Of a DNA stretch of 39,740 bases, positions 21,853-30,067 are shown piece by piece. The position numbers and the translations under genes were made by a program. The stretch is taken from NCBI GenBank assembly GCA_947626435.1, contig CANQSB010000028.1, forward strand, positions 1 through 39,740, given 5' to 3'. The notes below the pieces were generated by a model. That model worked only from the letters and a program-made list of their open reading frames with translations. It was not told where the DNA came from and ran no database searches. Source of the stretch: an uncultured Lachnospiraceae bacterium (GTDB lineage Bacteria; Bacillota; Clostridia; Lachnospirales; Lachnospiraceae). Position 1 is the first letter of the stretch. Every line of letters starts with the position of its first letter.

Positions 21853-22398
21853 ATGGCACTTACTGAAACAAACAGTTACACTATCAATGACGTATTTGAT
21901 TTGCCTGACGGACAGAGGGCTGAGCTTATTGACGGAAGGGTTTATTATATGTCGCCTGCAACGAGGAAGCATCAGCGCATTGTGGGCGAGCTTTTTGCGA
22001 CAATCCGCGAATACATAAAGCGCAATAACAACAACAGATGCGAGGTTGATATAGCGCCATTTGCTGTGTTCCTTGACGGCGACAACAAGACGTATGTGGA
22101 GCCGGACATAAGCATAATATGTGATTTAAACAAGCTTGACGATAAGGGCTGCAACGGCGCGCCTGACTGGATAATCGAGGTGGTTTCGCCCGCAAGCAGA
22201 AGGATAGATTACACCACGAAGCTTTTTAAATACAGGAGTGCAGGCGTGCGTGAGTATTGGATTGTCGATGAGGAGAAAAGCAGGGTCATGGTATATAACT
22301 TTACGCTTGACGAGATGAACGAGTACAGCTTTTCGGAGGATATTCCCGCGAAACTGTTTAATGATTTTACGATACGCATTTCAAATTTGGAATTATAA
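21853..22398 (+). CDS. Uma2-family (DUF820) PD-(D/E)XK-like protein
   Basis: 181-residue protein with the Uma2 layout: YELIDGRVYY-like N-terminus (ELIDGRVYYMSPA), HQRIVGEL, YVEPDISIICD and APDWIIEVVSPASRRIDYTTKLFKYRSAGVREYWIVD. The EPD and IEV acidic positions are those of the restriction-endonuclease-like fold, and no inactivating change is visible. The biological role of the family is not established. Start ATG with AAGGAGA about 9 bases upstream. Apparently monocistronic. The 220 bases between the etfA terminator and this gene show no convincing promoter. Confidence 0.88.
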   Translation: MALTETNSYTINDVFDLPDGQRAELIDGRVYYMSPATRKHQRIVGELFATIREYIKRNNNNRCEVDIAPFAVFLDGDNKTYVEPDISIICDLNKLDDKGCNGAPDWIIEVVSPASRRIDYTTKLFKYRSAGVREYWIVDEEKSRVMVYNFTLDEMNEYSFSEDIPAKLFNDFTIRISNLEL

Positions 22399-22528
22399 AA
22401 ATGACGGAAAAATCAAAGGTTGAGATGCCATGGGCAGTGAATTTTAGAATGTCATAAATGAGGATATTACCAATCAGGAGAGTAAAACCGGTATAAAAAC
22501 CGGCAAAGGACAAATTGTGATAAAAGGC

Positions 22529-22557
22529 TTGCAAATGCAGGTCGTATAACGTATAAT
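22529..22557 (+). promoter_or_regulatory. Promoter of the speD leader
   Basis: -35 TTGCAA (22529-22534), 17-base spacer, perfect -10 TATAAT (22552-22557). Start predicted near 22564, about 280 bases before the speD start codon. Confidence 0.75.
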
Positions 22558-22564
22558 AGGCTTA

Positions 22565-22669
22565 ATGAAAATTAAGGCGGTTAGAGCCTTATTGATTTGG
22601 ATTCGATTATCCGTATTTTATAAGTTGGTTACTATAAACCATGTACGTTTTCGTACAACCCGCTTGTGA
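22565..22669 (+). CDS. Possible 34-codon leader peptide ORF
   Basis: An ATG-to-TGA frame lies inside the speD leader, encoding a basic peptide with six arginines, ending FRTTRL. Its coding span covers the long-range helix and hairpin of the leader, so a ribosome on it would change the fold. Against it: the ATG falls at or next to the predicted transcription start and lacks a ribosome binding site. It may be chance. Confidence 0.25.
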   Translation: MKIKAVRALLIWIRLSVFYKLVTINHVRFRTTRL

Positions 22670-22777
22670 AAATCAATAAGAGTAGTAAAAGTAAACTTTC
22701 TTGCTATATAGACTCTAATCACCCTACTGTAAAAGCCATGTTTTTATTATAATGCGGCAAATAGTGTGAAGATATTG

Positions 22778-22814
22778 ACGAGTGGAAATCGAAAGAGATG
22801 TCCACTCGTTTTTT
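22778..22814 (+). terminator. Intrinsic terminator in the speD leader
   Basis: A perfect 9-bp stem ACGAGTGGA / TCCACTCGT (22778-22786/22801-22809) with a 14-base loop and a run of T residues to 22814. It precedes the speD start by 31 bases. Confidence 0.88.
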
Positions 22815-22845
22815 GCTTAATAAATTTAAAGAGGTTACGTCAGCT

Positions 22846-23667
22846 ATGGAGAGCAAATTGAAATTATATGGTTTTAACAATCTTACGAAGTCGTTAAGCT
22901 TTAATATTTATGATGTGTGCTATGCAAAAAGCGAGAGGGAGCAGCACGATTATATTGCCTATATCGACGAGCAGTATAATTCAGAGCGTCTTACAAAGAT
23001 TTTGTTTCATGTTACGGAAATGATAGGCGCGCATGTGCTGAACGTGTCCAAGCAGGATTATGAGCCGCAGGGCGCGAGCGTGACCTTTCTTATAGCGGAG
23101 TCAAATATGATACCTGCGGGGCATAAAAGTGCGGCGAGTGCGGCGCTGACCTATAAGGACACGCTGAAGCTTACGAATCACAATGATGAGATAGTGGCGC
23201 ATTTGGACAAGAGCCATATCACTGTGCATACATATCCGGAGTATCATCCTGAGACGAATATCGCGACGTTCAGGGTGGATATTGACGTGGCGACATGCGG
23301 GGAGATTACGCCGCTTAGCACGCTTGATTACCTGATTGGCAGCTTTGATTCGGATATTATTACTATGGATTATCGTGTGAGGGGGTTTACGCGTAATGTG
23401 GAGGGCAGAAAGCTTTTCATGGATCACAAAATTACCTCTATACAGGATTATATTGATAAAGCTGTGCTTGAAAGATACGATGTGATGGATATAAACATAT
23501 ATCAGGCAAATATTTTCCACACGAAAATGCTTATTAAGGAGATTGATTTGCAGAACTACCTGTTTAATTCGGATATATACGAGATTGCGCCGAAGGCAAG
23601 ACTTGAAATCAGCAATAATTTGAGGCAGGAAATGATTGAAATTTTCAGCGGAGAAAATATTTATTGA
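22846..23667 (+). CDS. speD: S-adenosylmethionine decarboxylase proenzyme
   Basis: Makes decarboxylated AdoMet, the aminopropyl donor for spermidine. It is of the E. coli-type SpeD family. The self-cleavage motif DKSHITVHTYPE places the pyruvoyl-forming serine at S123, after a lysine as in E. coli. The C-terminal part has GEITPLSTLDYLIGSFDSDI and MDYRVRGFTRNVEG. Length 273. The frame is open from 22798, but that ATG lies in the terminator 3' arm. The ATG at 22846 has an AAAGAGG ribosome binding site and begins MESKLKLYGFNN, as in relatives. First gene of the polyamine cluster, under the leader attenuator. Confidence 0.95.
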   Translation: MESKLKLYGFNNLTKSLSFNIYDVCYAKSEREQHDYIAYIDEQYNSERLTKILFHVTEMIGAHVLNVSKQDYEPQGASVTFLIAESNMIPAGHKSAASAALTYKDTLKLTNHNDEIVAHLDKSHITVHTYPEYHPETNIATFRVDIDVATCGEITPLSTLDYLIGSFDSDIITMDYRVRGFTRNVEGRKLFMDHKITSIQDYIDKAVLERYDVMDINIYQANIFHTKMLIKEIDLQNYLFNSDIYEIAPKARLEISNNLRQEMIEIFSGENIY

Positions 23668-23714
23668 ACAAGCGGCGTAGGATGAATGTGGATTTGGATA
23701 TAAGGAGGGGTCGC

Positions 23715-25217
23715 ATGGGAGCGTTGAATCAGTCGAGGGCGCCTGTCTTGGAGGCGTTGGAGGAAATGAAACGGAACAGACTCGTGCCATTTGACGTGCC
23801 AGGGCATAAGCGGGGGAAAGGCAATTCTGACCTTATGCAGTTTTTGGGTGAAAAGTGCCTTTCTGTGGATGTTAATTCAATGAAAATGCTCGACAATCTG
23901 TGTCACCCTGTTTCTGTGATCAAGGAGGCTGAGGAGCTTGCGGCGGATGCGTTTGGCGCGGCGCATGCTTTTTTTATGGTGGGCGGCACGACGTCGGCAG
24001 TGCAGAGCATGGTGCTTTCGGTGTGCAAACGGGGGGATAAGCTTATTTTGCCCAGAAATGTGCATAGAAGCGTGATAAATGTTATGATTTTGTGCGGAGC
24101 CGTGCCTGTATATGTCAATCCTGATATGAACCATGAGCTGGGGATTTCGCTGGGGATGCGTGTGAGCGAAGTGGAAAAGGCGATTGCCGAAAATCCTGAC
24201 GCGAAGGCTATTTTAATCAATAATCCGACTTACTATGGTGTCTGTTCAAACCTTAAGGCGATAACAAGGCTGGCGCACAGCCATGGGATGAGGGTTCTAG
24301 TTGATGAAGCGCATGGAGCGCATTTTTATTTTGACAGGGATTTGCCAATGACAGCGATGGAGGCGGGAGCGGATATGGCTGCTGTGAGTATGCACAAGTC
24401 GGGCGGTTCGCTGACACAATCGTCATTTTTGCTTATCGGACCTGATATGAGCAAGGGACATGTAAGACAGATAATTAATCTTACCCAGACGACAAGCGGA
24501 TCGTATCTGCTGCTGTCAAGCCTTGATATTTCCAGAAGAAATATGGCATTGAACGGTCAGGAAATTTTTGGCAAGGTCAAGGATATGGTTGAGTACGCGC
24601 GAAAAGAGATTAATCAGATAGGGGATTATTACGCGTATTCGAAGGAGCTTGTAAACGGTGATTCGGTCTATGATTTTGATATAACTAAGCTGTCTGTCAA
24701 TACGCTAAAGGTGGGGCTTGCGGGCATTGAGGTTTATGATTTGCTGCGGGACGAGTATGATATTCAAACAGAGTTTGGTGATATTGGGAATATTTTGGCT
24801 TATGTTTCAGTCGGAGACAGACCGAGGGATATTGAACGGCTGGTGAGCGCGCTTGCGGAAATCAGGCGGCTTTACAAGAGGGACAGGACGGGACAGATGA
24901 CGGCGGAGTATATTAATCCGAGAGTGATTTTTTCGCCGCAGGATGCGTTTTATAGTGAAAAACAGTCGGTTTTGCTGGAAAAATGCAGGGACATGGTGTG
25001 CGCGGAGTTTGTGATGTGCTATCCGCCGGGGATTCCGATACTGGCGCCGGGAGAACTGATTACGGAAGAAATTTTAAGATATATTATTTATGCTAAGGAG
25101 AAAGGGTGCCAGATGACCGGAATGGAAGATATGGAGTTGAACTCGCTTAATGTGATGAAGGGCATTAGGTCGGGGGAGATTGAGCCGGGGAAGGGAATGA
25201 GTTTGAAGGATGCTTGA
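23715..25217 (+). CDS. speA: PLP-dependent Orn/Lys/Arg decarboxylase, probably arginine decarboxylase
   Basis: Fold-type I basic amino acid decarboxylase of the short Bacillus SpeA type (500 residues, without the N-terminal wing domain of the large E. coli enzymes). Motifs are VPGHKRG (28-34), DEAHGAHFYFD (197-207) and SMHKSGGSLTQ with the PLP lysine K228. I favour arginine as substrate because an agmatinase (speB) lies in the same cluster, but lysine or ornithine cannot be excluded. The frame is open from a TTG at 23664. The ATG at 23715 has AAGGAGGGG 4-5 bases ahead. The upstream extension would be rich in Arg and unlike the family. Confidence 0.9.
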   Translation: MGALNQSRAPVLEALEEMKRNRLVPFDVPGHKRGKGNSDLMQFLGEKCLSVDVNSMKMLDNLCHPVSVIKEAEELAADAFGAAHAFFMVGGTTSAVQSMVLSVCKRGDKLILPRNVHRSVINVMILCGAVPVYVNPDMNHELGISLGMRVSEVEKAIAENPDAKAILINNPTYYGVCSNLKAITRLAHSHGMRVLVDEAHGAHFYFDRDLPMTAMEAGADMAAVSMHKSGGSLTQSSFLLIGPDMSKGHVRQIINLTQTTSGSYLLLSSLDISRRNMALNGQEIFGKVKDMVEYARKEINQIGDYYAYSKELVNGDSVYDFDITKLSVNTLKVGLAGIEVYDLLRDEYDIQTEFGDIGNILAYVSVGDRPRDIERLVSALAEIRRLYKRDRTGQMTAEYINPRVIFSPQDAFYSEKQSVLLEKCRDMVCAEFVMCYPPGIPILAPGELITEEILRYIIYAKEKGCQMTGMEDMELNSLNVMKGIRSGEIEPGKGMSLKDA

Positions 25218-25716
25218 GACAAAGGATTTGGCACTTGATAAGGCGAAGCTGTCTGATTGGAAGGATATGTATTATAATGTCTGGTCGCGTTGGGAATGCG
25301 CGCGTTATATGGCGTGGCGGCTGACGGAAAATGAGGACGAGGCTGTAGAAAGAATGCGAAGGACGATTGAGTTTCAGAAAAATCATGATACATATACTGT
25401 CTACGAGAAAGCTTGTATGCGCGCAATCGGGTTTGCGGGAGTGGAACAGATAGCGCCTGCTGCGTATGCCGAAACGGGGATTTGTCTGGGAGCGGATTAT
25501 TTTAGGCGTGGATATGGGAAACAGATAGTTTTGTGTCTTGTTGATTATTGCAGAGGACTTGGCGCGAGGGAGTTTTTTTATTCGGCGCGTGAGGAAAATG
25601 AGGCGGCGAACAGGCTGGCTGTTTCGCTGGGCTTTGCCGTTTCGGGATATGAGGAAAAGACGGATGGCAGGGATGGACACAGGTATAAGCTGGTAAAGTA
25701 TAGATTGGAGTTATAG
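25210..25716 (+). CDS. GNAT-family N-acetyltransferase
   Basis: 168-residue GNAT. The acetyl-CoA-binding motif A is seen as LGADYFRRGYGKQIVLCLVDYC (about 97-118), followed by EENEAANRLAVSLGF, the usual motif B region. It overlaps the speA end by 8 bases, which suggests coupled translation. Its place inside a polyamine cluster makes a polyamine or agmatine acetyltransferase possible, but the sequence does not show substrate specificity and it does not have the usual SpeG look. Confidence 0.85.
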   Translation: MLETKDLALDKAKLSDWKDMYYNVWSRWECARYMAWRLTENEDEAVERMRRTIEFQKNHDTYTVYEKACMRAIGFAGVEQIAPAAYAETGICLGADYFRRGYGKQIVLCLVDYCRGLGAREFFYSAREENEAANRLAVSLGFAVSGYEEKTDGRDGHRYKLVKYRLEL

Positions 25717-25728
25717 GAGGTACAAATT

Positions 25729-26316
25729 ATGCTGCCAATAAGAGCGGAGGCTGAGAGATTGTTGAGCGAGGCTGAGAAATGCAATCCGGGACCATGGGGG
25801 AATCATAGCCGAGTTGTGGCACATTGCGCTGAGAAAATAGCAGGCGCGTGTGATGATATGGATTCGGAGAAGGCGTATATATTGGGACTTTTGCATGATA
25901 TTGGGAGAAAATTCGGGGTAAGGCATCTTGGGCATGTTTCGGACGGGTATACATATATGATGTTGCTGGGATATGACGAGGCGGCGAAAGTTTGTCTTAC
26001 GCATTCCTTTAATAATCATACGGTGGATGAGTATATCGGGAATTTTGATACGTCTGATGAGGAGCTTAGGCTGATTAGGGAGACTTTAGCGTCTGTTGAG
26101 TATGATGATTACGACAGGCTTGTCCAACTGTGCGATTCACTGGCCGGCAGCGAGGGCGTGCTGGACATTGAAGAACGTATGGAGGATGTAAAGCGAAGAT
26201 ACGGCGCATATCCGCAGAAAAAGTGGGATGCGAATATTGTATTGAAGGAATACTTTGAAAAGAAGGCGGGAAATAATATTTATGTGTTGACGGAGAAAGA
26301 CACATATAGACCATGA
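25729..26316 (+). CDS. HD-domain metal-dependent phosphohydrolase
   Basis: 195 residues with an HD domain: NHSRVVAHCAEKIA (first histidine), LLHDIGRKFG (the HD pair) and a later histidine in CLTHSFNNHT. Such proteins hydrolyse phosphate esters of nucleotides or related compounds. The substrate is unknown. GGAGGT precedes the start, 12 bases after the GNAT gene, so it belongs to the same transcript as the polyamine genes. Confidence 0.85.
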   Translation: MLPIRAEAERLLSEAEKCNPGPWGNHSRVVAHCAEKIAGACDDMDSEKAYILGLLHDIGRKFGVRHLGHVSDGYTYMMLLGYDEAAKVCLTHSFNNHTVDEYIGNFDTSDEELRLIRETLASVEYDDYDRLVQLCDSLAGSEGVLDIEERMEDVKRRYGAYPQKKWDANIVLKEYFEKKAGNNIYVLTEKDTYRP

Positions 26317-26537: not shown

Positions 26538-26969
26538 ATGTGGGGTTCGGTTTATTTGGTAGTAAGGGATTTTGACAAGTCGGTGTCGTTTTATGAAAAG
26601 ACACTTGATATGAAGGTGAGCGAGTCAAATGGAAAGCGTTTTGCAGTGTTTAAATGCGAGGGCTTAACTTTGTGCCTGATGAACGGCTATTATGATGATG
26701 AAAATCGGGACCATGTCGTCACAAAGGGCGGCTATTGGGAGATGTACGACAATATGAGCAAAATTGCCGACAGTGAAAATACGCGTAAGGTTTTTATCAA
26801 TCTGGGCGTGGAGGATTTGCAAAAGGAGTATGACAGGATAAAGGCGCTCGGCATCGCAAGGGATTTGACGCCGATACGCTACATCAATGTTTTTGTGCCG
26901 TATTGGTATTTTACATTTTCAGACCCTGACGGAAATCCGATTGAGATTACAGGCGGAATGGAGGATTGA
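26538..26969 (+). CDS. VOC-superfamily (glyoxalase/bleomycin-resistance-like) protein
   Basis: 143 residues with one vicinal-oxygen-chelate unit: SVYLVVRDFDKSVSFYEKTL at the N-terminus and YFTFSDPDGNPIEI at the C-terminus, the two signature strands of the fold. Members include glyoxalases, dioxygenases and antibiotic-binding proteins. The function here is not determinable. RBS AAGGTGG. It ends one base before speE and is certainly co-transcribed with it. Confidence 0.85.
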   Translation: MWGSVYLVVRDFDKSVSFYEKTLDMKVSESNGKRFAVFKCEGLTLCLMNGYYDDENRDHVVTKGGYWEMYDNMSKIADSENTRKVFINLGVEDLQKEYDRIKALGIARDLTPIRYINVFVPYWYFTFSDPDGNPIEITGGMED

Positions 26970-26970
26970 T

Positions 26971-27825
26971 ATGGAACTGTGGTTCACAGAGAAGCATACA
27001 GAGGATGTGAAATTTTCAATACATGTTGACCGCCAACTCTATTCGAGCCAGTCGGAATTTCAGCGGATTGACATTTTTGATTCAAAAGAATTTGGGCGTT
27101 TCCTCACGCTTGACGGATATATGATGCTTACGGAAAAGGACGAGTTTATTTATCATGAAATGATAGTGCATGTGCCGATGGCAGTACACCCAAATGTAAA
27201 GCGTGCGCTTGTTATTGGCGGAGGCGACGGAGGCGCTGTGAGAGAGCTTGCGCGGTACAAAAATATTGAGCGCATTGATTTGGCGGAGATTGATGAGGAG
27301 GTAGTGAAAGCGTGCAGGGAATTTCTGCCTCAGACGGCGTGTGGGTTTGATGACGAGAGAGTGCATATTTATTATGAGGACGGCTTAAAATTCGTGAGGA
27401 AATATATTGACGAATACGACCTTATCCTTGTGGATTCGACAGACCCGTTTGGACCGGGCGAGGGACTTTTCACAAAGGAATTTTATGGAAACTGCTATAA
27501 GGCGCTAAAGGCTGACGGCATTATGGTAAATCAGCACGAAAGCCCGTTTTATCCCGCGGATGCTTTGGCTATGCAGCGGGCGCATAAGCGCATCGTGGAG
27601 TCGTTTCCGATAAGCAAGGTTTATCAGGCGCATATTCCTACATATCCGTCCGGCCATTGGCTGTTTGGCTTTGCGTCCAAAAAATACCACCCGATTTACG
27701 ATCAAAAGGTCGAGCAGTGGAAAGCGCAGGGGATTAAGACAAGGTATTATAATGAGCAGCTTCATAGAGGGGCGTTTGCCTTGCCGAATTATGTGGAGGA
27801 ACTTTTGGAAGGGGTGGAAGCGTGA
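26971..27825 (+). CDS. speE: Spermidine synthase (polyamine aminopropyltransferase)
   Basis: Transfers an aminopropyl group from decarboxylated AdoMet (made by SpeD) to putrescine. AdoMet-type Rossmann fold with GGGDGG (83-88), LAEIDEEVV, and DSTDPFGPGEGLF with the catalytic aspartates D155 and D158. QHESPF and PSGHWLFGFAS are also typical. Length 284. The frame is open from 26887 across the end of the VOC gene. The ATG at 26971 follows GGAGG and gives MELWFTEKHTEDVKFS, the normal SpeE start. It overlaps speB by 4 bases. Confidence 0.96.
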   Translation: MELWFTEKHTEDVKFSIHVDRQLYSSQSEFQRIDIFDSKEFGRFLTLDGYMMLTEKDEFIYHEMIVHVPMAVHPNVKRALVIGGGDGGAVRELARYKNIERIDLAEIDEEVVKACREFLPQTACGFDDERVHIYYEDGLKFVRKYIDEYDLILVDSTDPFGPGEGLFTKEFYGNCYKALKADGIMVNQHESPFYPADALAMQRAHKRIVESFPISKVYQAHIPTYPSGHWLFGFASKKYHPIYDQKVEQWKAQGIKTRYYNEQLHRGAFALPNYVEELLEGVEA

Positions 27826-28688
27826 AAAAAAATGTAGAAACCTTTCTGGGCTGCGATGCGGAGTTTGACGAGGCGCGGATTGTGATTTTTGGTGCGCCGT
27901 TTGATTCTACGACATCGTACAGACCGGGGACAAGGTTTGCGAGCAGGACTATGCGGGCGGAGTCGTACGGATTGGAAACATACAGCCCGTATCAGGACTT
28001 GGACTTGGAGGACGCGAAGGTTTTTGACGGTGGTGATTTGGAGCTTTGCTTTGGCGATGCCGGGCTTGCGCTTGACGACATCAGTAGTTTTACAAAAAAA
28101 GTGCTGGCGGGCGGAAAGCTGCCGCTTATGATAGGCGGAGAGCATTTAGTGACGCTTGGCGCGGTAAGGGCTGTGGCGGAAAAATATCCCGATTTGCATG
28201 TTATTCATTTCGACGCCCACGCGGATTTGCGTGATGATTATCTTGGCGCGAGGCTTTCGCATGCTTCGGTACTGCGGCGTGTGTGGGACATAGTCGGCGA
28301 CGGCAGGATTTTCCAGTTCGGCATAAGGAGCGGTGAGCGCGCCGAATTTGAGTGGGGAAAAGAGCATGTCAGCACGCATAAATTTGATTTTGAAGGGCTT
28401 GGAGAAACGGTCGGGAAGCTAAAGGGAAAGCCTGTATATTTTACGCTTGATTTGGATGTGCTTGACACTTCCGTATTTCCGGGAACAGGGACGCCGGAAG
28501 CCGGGGGAGTCACCTTTTTACAGCTTTTGGATGCCGTTTTAAAGGTGGGCGAGCTCAATATCGTAGGGTGCGACATCAATGAGCTATCACCGCCGCTTGA
28601 CGCAAGCGGAGCGTCTACGACTGTTGCCTTGAAAGTCTTGAGGGAGCTTATATTAAAACTGGAAGAAAAATATATAAGAGTAAATTAA
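27822..28688 (+). CDS. speB: Agmatinase / ureohydrolase
   Basis: Hydrolyses agmatine to putrescine and urea. The arginase-fold manganese ligands are all present: H108 (GGEH), D131, H133 and D135 (DAHAD), and D210 and D212 (DLDVLD), plus the SHASVLRR and GTGTPEAGG loops. Length 288. It uses a GTG start overlapping the speE stop. With SpeA upstream it completes the arginine-agmatine-putrescine route that feeds SpeE. Other guanidino substrates are possible within the family. A 99-bp palindromic element begins 9 bases after its stop. Confidence 0.92.
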   Translation: MKKNVETFLGCDAEFDEARIVIFGAPFDSTTSYRPGTRFASRTMRAESYGLETYSPYQDLDLEDAKVFDGGDLELCFGDAGLALDDISSFTKKVLAGGKLPLMIGGEHLVTLGAVRAVAEKYPDLHVIHFDAHADLRDDYLGARLSHASVLRRVWDIVGDGRIFQFGIRSGERAEFEWGKEHVSTHKFDFEGLGETVGKLKGKPVYFTLDLDVLDTSVFPGTGTPEAGGVTFLQLLDAVLKVGELNIVGCDINELSPPLDASGASTTVALKVLRELILKLEEKYIRVN

Positions 28689-28697
28689 TTTAGTCAA

Positions 28698-28796
28698 GGG
28701 GCTGTCGTATTAAGAAATATGAAAACAAGATATAGTATTATTTGGTTTAGCTACAATACCATATCTTGCACATATAATCCTTATTGCGACAGCCCC
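28698..28796. mobile_element. 99-bp palindromic MITE-like element, copy A
   Basis: Perfect 10-bp terminal inverted repeats GGGGCTGTCG/CGACAGCCCC (28698-28707/28787-28796). Further internal pairing gives one long hairpin (CAAGATAT/ATATCTTG inside). No coding capacity. A second copy of exactly the same length lies at 30195. The right end supplies sequence just before the ribosome binding site of the next gene. Confidence 0.75.
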
Positions 28797-28810
28797 GGAT
28801 TGGAGGAAAA

Positions 28811-30067
28811 ATGGGACGAGCATTGATTATAGGCTGTGGCGGAGTGGCAAGCGTGGCAATTCACAAATGCTGCCAAAACAGCGAGGTTTTTGAGGAGATA
28901 ATGATAGCAAGCCGCACTAAATCGAAGTGTGACGCGCTGAAGGAAAAGCTGGGCAATGGAAGGACGAAAATACAGACTGCCCGGGTGAACGCCGACGACA
29001 AGGATGAGGTAATTGCGCTTATAAAGAGTTTTAAGCCTGATTTAGTTATGAATATTGCCCTGCCGTATCAGGACTTGACGATTATGGACGCATGCCTTGA
29101 ATGTAAGGTAAATTATATGGATACGGCAAATTACGAGCCTGAAAACATAGAGGAGCCCGAATGGAAGGCGGCATATGAAAAGCGCTGCAAGGAGAAAGGC
29201 TTTTCCGCATATTTTGACTATTCGTATCAATGGGCGTACAAGAAAAAATTTGAGGAGGCGGGCATTACCGCGCTTCTCGGTTCGGGCTTCGACCCGGGCG
29301 TGACGCAGGTGTACTGTGCTTATGCGCTGAAACACGAGTTTGACGAGATTGACACGATAGACATTCTCGACTGCAACGGCGGAGACCATGGCTATGCCTT
29401 TGCGACGAATTTCAACCCTGAAATTAATCTGCGTGAGGTATCGGCGCCGGGCAGCTATTGGGAAAACGGCCGTTGGGTAGAGGTGCCTGCTATGAGCATT
29501 AAGCGCGAGTATGATTTTGAAGGCGTCGGCAGAAAGGACATGTACCTGCTTCATCATGAGGAAATCGAGTCGCTTGCGAAAAATATCAAGGGCGTAAAGC
29601 GCATACGCTTTTTTATGACCTTTGGGCAAAGCTACCTTGACCATATGAGATGCCTTGAGGATGTCGGGATGCTTTCGACGGTGCCGATAAATTATGAGGG
29701 AAAAGAGATTGTGCCTATCCAATTTTTGAAGGCGCTTCTGCCTGACCCCGCAAGCTTAGGACCGCGTACTAAGGGCAAGACGAATATCGGCTGTATTTTT
29801 ACGGGGAAAAAAGATGGAAAAGAAAAAAAGTATTATCTCTACAATATCTGCGACCATCAGGAGTGTTTCAGGGAGGTAGGTTCCCAGGCGGTTTCCTACA
29901 CGACCGGCGTACCCGCGATGGTTGGCGCTATGATGCTGCTTACCGGCAAATGGAACAAGGCGGGCGTTTATACGGCGGAGGAGTTTAACCCTGACCCGTA
30001 TATGGAGGCGCTGAATGTCTGGGGACTGCCATGGAAAGAAAGCCGCGAGCCTGTGCTTGTAGAATAG
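28811..30067 (+). CDS. Carboxynorspermidine synthase-like saccharopine dehydrogenase family protein
   Basis: In the family, carboxynorspermidine/carboxyspermidine dehydrogenase joins aspartate semialdehyde to diaminopropane or putrescine using NADPH, and the product is decarboxylated by NspC. The N-terminal Rossmann motif ALIIGCGGVASVAIHKC, LVMNIALPYQDLTIMDACLE, TALLGSGFDPGVTQVYCAYA and the C-terminal SYTTGVPAMVGAMMLLTGKW are characteristic. Length 418 from the ATG at 28811, after TTGGAGG. The frame extends back to a TTG inside the palindromic element, which I reject. Gene context supports a polyamine role. No nspC follows. It is flanked on both sides by 99-bp palindromes. Confidence 0.82.
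   Translation: MGRALIIGCGGVASVAIHKCCQNSEVFEEIMIASRTKSKCDALKEKLGNGRTKIQTARVNADDKDEVIALIKSFKPDLVMNIALPYQDLTIMDACLECKVNYMDTANYEPENIEEPEWKAAYEKRCKEKGFSAYFDYSYQWAYKKKFEEAGITALLGSGFDPGVTQVYCAYALKHEFDEIDTIDILDCNGGDHGYAFATNFNPEINLREVSAPGSYWENGRWVEVPAMSIKREYDFEGVGRKDMYLLHHEEIESLAKNIKGVKRIRFFMTFGQSYLDHMRCLEDVGMLSTVPINYEGKEIVPIQFLKALLPDPASLGPRTKGKTNIGCIFTGKKDGKEKKYYLYNICDHQECFREVGSQAVSYTTGVPAMVGAMMLLTGKWNKAGVYTAEEFNPDPYMEALNVWGLPWKESREPVLVE

Follow-up and report, generated by a model that had tools for sequence, protein, structure and literature searches.

In the literature found, strong evidence for a polyamine riboswitch exists for one class alone, a variant of the SAM-I riboswitch, as set out in the accessible part of its report (Salvail et al. 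2023, PMC10853860). According to the same part of that report, the class consists of 13 RNAs of SAM-I fold from a few Gram-positive genera and metagenomes. Like the leader described here, these RNAs are located before polyamine genes and act as transcriptional OFF switches through a terminator and an antiterminator (PMC10853860, same part). Other candidate regulatory RNAs found before polyamine genes, again as here, include the odc1 and potE motifs (PMC8632094, accessible sections), and the speF motif is likewise the leader of a polyamine gene (PMC11477304, accessible sections).

The leader analysed here precedes speD in an uncultured Lachnospiraceae bacterium (GenBank assembly GCA_947626435.1, contig CANQSB010000028.1); the window is the whole stretch of 39,740 nucleotides that was analysed. 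This leader is probably a cis-acting RNA that functions as a transcriptional OFF riboswitch for a polyamine, with spermidine as the first candidate and putrescine as the second. Its conserved fold, its terminator, the alternative partner of the terminator arm and its polyamine gene context are established by computation. A literature search, made mostly outside subscription papers and supplements and partly over the best 12-15 matches listed, found no published description of the conserved domain. The words polyamine, spermidine and decarboxylase are absent from PMC11109978.

Architecture of the leader

The features of the leader and of the genes that follow it are collected in Table 1. An earlier note on this DNA had reported a promoter, an 11-bp helix, a hairpin with a TTTT loop and a terminator, and all four lie at the positions given for them. 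It had also described the long-range helix as enclosing a 6-bp hairpin with a TTTT loop; this helix is P2 of a larger fold, and several elements lie inside it, namely P3, P4, P4a and P4b. The transcript would be expected to start near 22563-22565. A promoter scan alone was non-significant, with 7 promoters found in the region against 7.5 expected. Upstream of the core in 14 aligned copies from the genus, TATAAT is present in 11 (in four of these farther off) and TTGCA in six.

Table 1. Coordinates of the leader elements and downstream genes in the window.
Feature	Position	Strand	Remarks
Promoter TTGCAA-17-TATAAT	22529-22557	+	TTGCAA 22529-22534, TATAAT 22552-22557
Conserved RNA domain (3' domain of the polyamine leader RNA)	22563-22724	+	Covariance-model match, 127 bits, E 8.1e-24
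Helix P1, UAAGGC / GCCUUA	22573-22591	+	Homologous helix: both-side changes in 6/6 pairs
Helix P2, 5' strand CTTATTGATTT	22588-22598	+	At least 99 of 101 rows paired at each modelled P2 pair
Helix P3, GGAU / AUCC	22599-22612	+	Homologous helix: both-side changes in 3/4 pairs
Helix P4, 5' strand	22616-22625	+	Missing from 6 of 13 other aligned genus copies
Hairpin P4a GGUUACUAUAAACC	22627-22640	+	
Hairpin P4b, UGUACG-UUUU-CGUACA	22642-22657	+	Homologous helix: both-side changes in 5/5 pairs
Helix P4, 3' strand, also antiterminator strand CCCGCUUGUGAAA	22659-22671	+	
Helix P2, 3' strand AAATCAATAAG	22670-22680	+	Perfect 11-bp match to 22588-22598
Helix P5 with near-invariant internal loop, AGAGUAGUAAAAGU ... 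UUGCUAUAUAGACUCU	22679-22716	+	
Terminator 5' arm and flank UUGACGAGUGGAAAUC	22775-22790	+	Predicted ON-state partner of 22659-22671, -13.5 kcal/mol
Intrinsic terminator with T-run	22777-22814	+	ACGAGTGGA...TCCACTCGT within 22777-22810
speD, AdoMet decarboxylase	22846-23667	+	TIGR03331, 410 bits
Orn/Lys/Arg decarboxylase, ldcC/speA-like	23664-25217	+	PF01276; start and substrate uncertain; curated matches far below cut-offs
speE, spermidine synthase	26887-27825	+	TIGR00417; exact start uncertain
speB, agmatinase	27822-28688	+	TIGR01230
Carboxy(nor)spermidine dehydrogenase/synthase	28784-30067	+	NF043000, 414 bits, under the cut-off of 800; start uncertain

The last base of the terminator's T-run is 22814, which leaves 31 bases to the speD ATG at 22846. 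The terminator was located directly and by a folding scan; a simple hairpin scan, which considers loops of 3-8 bases only, did not return it. The 259-base leader folds with -72 kcal/mol, compared with -47.5 (sd 4.6) for 200 dinucleotide shuffles, none of which was as stable (z -5.33). Together with conservation and covariation in other genomes, this folding z shows a structure in excess of chance. The window's own genome holds one copy of the domain, giving a single covariance-model match at E up to 10.

A longer pairing displaces P1 when the window leader is folded at full length to minimum energy. Minimum-energy folds ending at 22725, 22813 and 22823 draw the P1 loop GGUUAGAG (22579-22586) in a long nested helix with CUCUAAUC (22713-22720) and leave P1 unformed; P1 is drawn in both antiterminator folds of the window. 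This loop pairing was considered as a pseudoknot and excluded from the core because it is kept in the genus by wobble-type changes only and its 3' side is unconserved in the family. It may be real in this genus.

The leader also contains an open reading frame of 34 arginine-rich codons beginning with ATG at 22565, so that ribosome-mediated attenuation through a leader peptide had to be weighed. Ornithine-sensing leader peptides are known for speF, and a start codon stands at the same place in two genus copies (L007, TTG, 44 codons; L010, ATG, 18 codons). Against this, ten other core-matched genus copies have no start there, the starts nearby open frames of 1-22 codons, and close copies such as L006 and L009 differ by one-base changes in length. 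With the start kept in only two of 12 genus copies and the frame not kept, a leader peptide was rejected as extremely improbable.

Directly upstream of the leader, at 21853-22398, lies a Uma2-family gene (PF05685, putative nuclease); a similar gene occupies the same place in the genus relatives L005-L007, L009, L012 and L013.

Distribution of the RNA family

The domain was found by DNA search in 12 of 38 genomes of the genus, the window's own included, and covariance model R1, built from 8 copies, returned the same 12. Beyond the genus, R1 detected it in at least 55 of 397 genomes of the family, and R2, built from 32 copies, in at least 53 of 392 genomes of the order and at least 24 of 398 of the phylum, the window's genome being counted each time. 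These figures, and the genome counts for RF02440 given below, are lower bounds because searches of over 40 genomes use stricter filters. Within the genus, speD itself is present in 13 of the 38 genomes; the RNA accompanies it in 12 of these and occurs in none of the 25 genomes that lack speD. The thirteenth speD genome (G032, locus L297) gave no R2 match at E up to 10. Its speD is still preceded by a short hairpin with a T-run that resembles a terminator, as if the aptamer had been deleted.

An exact DNA pattern, blind to genes and applied to one genome per species, located at least 119 loci. Among the matches listed are Faecalibacterium prausnitzii, Acetobacterium, Paenibacillus, Agathobaculum, Neobacillus and many Lachnospiraceae, together with one contig labelled Salinivirgaceae whose copy scored 98 bits. 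Scoring with the covariance model covered loci L268 and L170 of this pattern set.

The earlier note had proposed an attenuator-type leader controlling speD and the polyamine operon, and such a leader is indeed conserved in relatives. Conservation of the long-range helix and of the terminator in other leaders had been set beforehand as one point on which the proposal could fail, and both are conserved. Covariance models recovered the RNA family across genus, family, order and phylum, with pairs that covary.

Several copies in relatives are unusual. In G016 (locus L005), near-identical copies of the RNA and terminator lie in tandem before speD at 1501-1788 and 1908-2178; a promoter is present at the first copy, and the stretch before the second resembles, by eye, the start of the following gene. 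The arrangement represents either a recent duplication or a tandem switch. Genome G023 carries, besides an RNA of the genus type, a second, divergent copy on the minus strand of contig C82 (L035, 1502-1664), which has an RF02440-like module by eye and is followed by a carboxyspermidine dehydrogenase-like fragment. It looks like a relic of the leader of another lineage. Two related genomes have a c-di-GMP-I riboswitch on the opposite strand, at a distance of about 1 kb from the leader RNA (L094, 2654-2745; L096, 2667-2758).

Conservation and covariation of the fold

Fold statistics were calculated from 101 matches in 100 loci aligned to R2, an alignment that is fitted to the model. Changes on both sides were observed in 26 of 48 pairs, compared with 14.5 in shuffles. 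Paired cells amounted to 92.5%, against 87.5% in shuffled alignments and 33-41% when partners were slid, and the covariation score was 0.187, against 0.105 shuffled and 0.019-0.036 slid. None of 500 shuffles reached the observed value of any of five measures on this fitted alignment. Most of the covariation is carried by P1, P3 and P4b; P2 and P5 contribute little because both hardly vary. The register of helix 6 (P4a) in R2 is off by one, and the model was kept unchanged.

Because the 101-row alignment is fitted to the model, the count was repeated on an unfitted alignment of 32 rows. The covariation score was then 0.122, against 0.090 for shuffles (0 of 500 reaching it) and at most 0.058 for slid partners; on two of the five measures, 28 and 62 of the 500 shuffles came up to the observed value. 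A conserved, covarying, aptamer-like fold in a 5' leader, which is one hallmark of a riboswitch, is therefore present, more weakly so on the unfitted alignment.

Conservation is highest in P5, AGAGUAGUAAAAGU...UUGCUAUAUAGACUCU, in which AUAUAG is bulged out, and this helix with its internal loop is the candidate ligand-binding core. One genus copy (L010, 1410-1743) has about 155 bases inserted in the apical loop of P5, which suggests that the apical loop itself is non-essential.

Terminator and antiterminator

Hairpins followed by a T-run were sought up to about 230 nt from the domain, and 98 of 101 loci gave a terminator with an energy at or below -12 kcal/mol. The same was found in 20 of 202 dinucleotide shuffles and in 9 of 99 stretches taken 600-860 nt downstream.

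When partners for the 5' arm of the terminator were sought from the start of the domain to the terminator, the arm paired best with the 3' strand of P4, ACUUGUGAA, in 73 of 97 loci. The four rows left out of the 101 were L094, L010 and L145, in which the best terminator lies beyond 210 nt, and L012, in which the position of P4 is unaligned. Shuffled arms chose the P4 strand in a mean of 10.6 loci (maximum 19 in 50 rounds) and reversed arms in 14. In the other 24 loci, genus copies L006 and L009 among them, the best partner of the arm lies elsewhere. On the P4 strand a locus's own arm paired with a mean of -11.8 kcal/mol, compared with -9.6 for arms of other loci, an advantage reached in none of 10,000 permutations and likewise in none of 10,000 when restricted to the 89 loci with distinct arms. 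The own arm is seldom the best, with a median rank of 25 among 97 arms and a rank of 12 in the window. These shuffle and permutation counts are not probabilities, since the loci share ancestry. The two partners change together: in L051 the strand CAUUUGUG stands opposite CGCAAAUG, whereas L049 is without the usual P4 and has UAUCACUU opposite AGGUGAUA.

Minimum-energy folds of growing window transcripts follow the exchange. P4 is formed in the transcript ending at 22725, the antiterminator is the minimum-energy fold of transcripts to 22786 and 22797, before the 3' arm of the terminator, and P4 with the terminator is that of transcripts to 22813 and 22823. Of the 97 loci, 22 hold the antiterminator in the minimum-energy fold of the nascent RNA, compared with 0-3 for shuffled arms in ten rounds, and 93 form the terminator in the complete fold. 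An antiterminator that serves as nascent ground state in all species is not supported by this count of 22. The exchange is accordingly a general possibility, for which most species would need a folding order or the absence of ligand. In the six genus copies that lack the 5' strand of P4, the OFF state must differ in detail. Mutually exclusive structures of the kind that make up the expression platform of a riboswitch are thus predicted for this leader.

Downstream genes and the nature of the signal

The first recognised gene downstream was a polyamine gene in 114 of the at least 119 pattern loci; the other five are unreadable, having too little sequence, and were left uncounted. This gene was speD in 42 loci, the decarboxylase in 32, carboxyspermidine dehydrogenase in 21, potA in 18 and nspC in one. 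This census labels the first downstream ORF that resembles one of five proteins of the window (SpeD, the decarboxylase, SpeE, SpeB and the carboxyspermidine dehydrogenase), and in the 95 loci labelled by similarity to a window protein the labelled ORF starts within 500 nt of the domain. NCBIfam confirmed PotA in three loci, and similarity to one of those three supports it in each of the 18; potB, potC or potD follows potA in most. The nspC of L268 is the first identified ORF, about 1.2 kb downstream beyond a stretch that was not read.

Similar results were obtained from the aligned set of 101 rows, where labelling by similarity placed a polyamine gene first in 99 (speD 60, decarboxylase 33, carboxyspermidine dehydrogenase 6). 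The two rows labelled otherwise are L121, which is PotA-like by eye, and L132, which has a lipoprotein-like gene. In all 28 of the family loci L036-L063 the next gene recognisable by eye encodes SpeD or an Orn/Lys/Arg decarboxylase; these loci are also part of the set labelled by similarity. The consistent metabolic gene set expected behind a riboswitch is thus found, with L132 as the one exception in the aligned set.

AdoMet had been put forward in the earlier note as one possible ligand, and the RNA might accordingly sense AdoMet or decarboxylated AdoMet on the substrate side of SpeD. The first gene in the window is speD, as it is in the 42 pattern loci counted above. This ligand is nevertheless very unlikely, because the first recognised gene is one other than speD in 72 of the 114 readable loci, and the carboxyspermidine route uses no AdoMet. 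Moreover, none of Rfam's SAM riboswitch families matched the window leader at E up to 10, and none matched its relative L043, the search having been made with Rfam models rather than with an alignment of the 13 variant sequences. On the side of AdoMet, the known spermidine riboswitch is itself a variant of an AdoMet aptamer, according to the accessible part of its report (PMC10853860). The genes following the RNA serve two routes of synthesis as well as spermidine/putrescine import, and an end-product polyamine, rather than AdoMet, is therefore the more plausible signal.

Between the decarboxylase and speE, at 25210-26316, the polyamine operon of the window includes a GNAT acetyltransferase and an HD-domain protein; a link to polyamine acetylation is a guess.

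Relationship to RF02440

No Rfam family matched the window leader at its gathering score, and a lax search gave nothing better than E 0.3; its matches to rseX (covering the promoter on the complementary strand), RefA1 and sau-63 were dismissed as weak and implausible. Searches of the window leader with Rfam for T-box, and for tRNA and tmRNA, were likewise negative. RF02440 (SpF59/ldcC RNA), for which a match is taken at 37.2 bits, gave none even at E up to 10 in 22400-22900, and the window's genome (G000) has no match to it. In the domain of L043, the only Rfam match at E below 0.6 is RF02440.

Of 20 family loci scanned, 9 have RF02440 directly before the domain, and a scan of 20 phylum loci detected it in 14. 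Each of the 17 phylum-sample genomes in which RF02440 occurs belongs to the 24 that carry the domain, and the module lies directly 5' of the domain, overlapping it by a few bases in 16 and separated by a gap of 4 bases in one. The remaining 7 of the 24, including the window's, carry the domain with no RF02440 match over the cut-off. As the module is found in only part of the domain carriers, RF02440 is the optional element and the domain the more constant one. RF02440 also matches in control genomes of Lactococcus; its linkage to the domain was sampled outside Lactococcus. The window copy is a relative of RF02440 carriers and not a member of RF02440, and the window's genus either lost the module or never had it.

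The statement that the leader falls outside recognised riboswitch classes consequently needs division: the window leader is without an Rfam match at the gathering score, and the wider RNA is partly catalogued, because relatives in other genera carry the RF02440 5' module. The model of RF02440 spans 54 nt and describes the 5' module only, whereas the domain described here is about 160 nt and lies outside that model. The ldcC motif was reportedly described by Weinberg et al. in 2017. The newness of the domain was judged against the 54-nt Rfam model, and the extent of the ldcC alignment is what chiefly limits that judgement.

Rfam files RF02440 as Gene; sRNA, and in the OFF state the leader would itself yield a terminated transcript, both of which could point to a stand-alone small RNA gene with its own terminator rather than to a leader. 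The constant position on the same strand upstream of polyamine genes, and the better pairing of the arm with the P4 strand than is obtained with swapped arms, render this very improbable.

In the module-free loci L038, L039, L040, L046-L048, L061, L064 and L066 another 5' hairpin, ending UCCAUGCAAAUAUUU, is present, and L044 has a similar one. An identical or similar hairpin also precedes the RF02440 module in several module-bearing copies (L043, L050 and L055).

Proposed mechanism

For a polyamine riboswitch, the conserved 3' strand of P4, ACUUGUGAAA, would be the element on which the decision turns, since two alternative pairings are predicted for it, one within the fold and one with the terminator's 5' arm. 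Without ligand, this strand would capture the terminator arm and the polymerase would read on into speD. With ligand, the fold would be held closed, P4 would keep the strand, and the terminator would form and turn the operon off. The polyamine may bind directly in or near P5, and binding would then be what represses.

The same leader, with the same terminator and antiterminator, could also be served by an RNA-binding protein as the sensor, or respond to a general effect of polyamines on RNA folding. Protein-bound antiterminators such as that of LicT are usually much smaller, and the near-invariant P5 core with its bulge, kept across many families, resembles a ligand pocket; both points argue against a protein. 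The evidence covers the geometry of the switch and its gene context, which leaves room for either variant, and the accessible part of PMC10853860 cautions that spermidine may have effects that do not pass through a riboswitch. We consider a protein or a general effect unlikely, and direct sensing of a polyamine by the RNA is preferred. The interpretation given in the earlier note is, overall, partly supported.

We also incline, with somewhat less assurance than for the leader itself, to the wider view that this RNA is the main polyamine riboswitch of the Bacillota. It would have a fold of its own unrelated to SAM-I, would shut off spermidine synthesis by both the SpeD/SpeE and carboxyspermidine routes as well as import by PotABCD, and would use RF02440 as an optional accessory module. 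Such a role would explain the ldcC/SpF59 RNA. Polyamines are present in nearly every cell, and the leader poses a directly testable question, namely which amine is bound by the near-invariant P5 core.

Comparison with known polyamine leaders

Of the motifs that resemble this leader in position, each is set apart by its description or distribution. The potE motif is confined to Veillonella and environmental samples and has no obvious expression platform, and odc1 is a pseudoknot domain used with an upstream ORF, in both cases going by the accessible sections of PMC8632094. The speF motif is alphaproteobacterial according to the accessible sections of PMC11477304, and the window has no Rfam match to speF. 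The spermidine riboswitch, which works alike and is presented in the accessible part of PMC10853860, differs in that the leader described here has a different helix plan, has no SAM-family match and occurs at no fewer than 119 loci. If the proposed role is correct, this RNA would be a far commoner polyamine sensor in gut and soil Bacillota than the SAM-I variant with its 13 examples (PMC10853860, accessible part).
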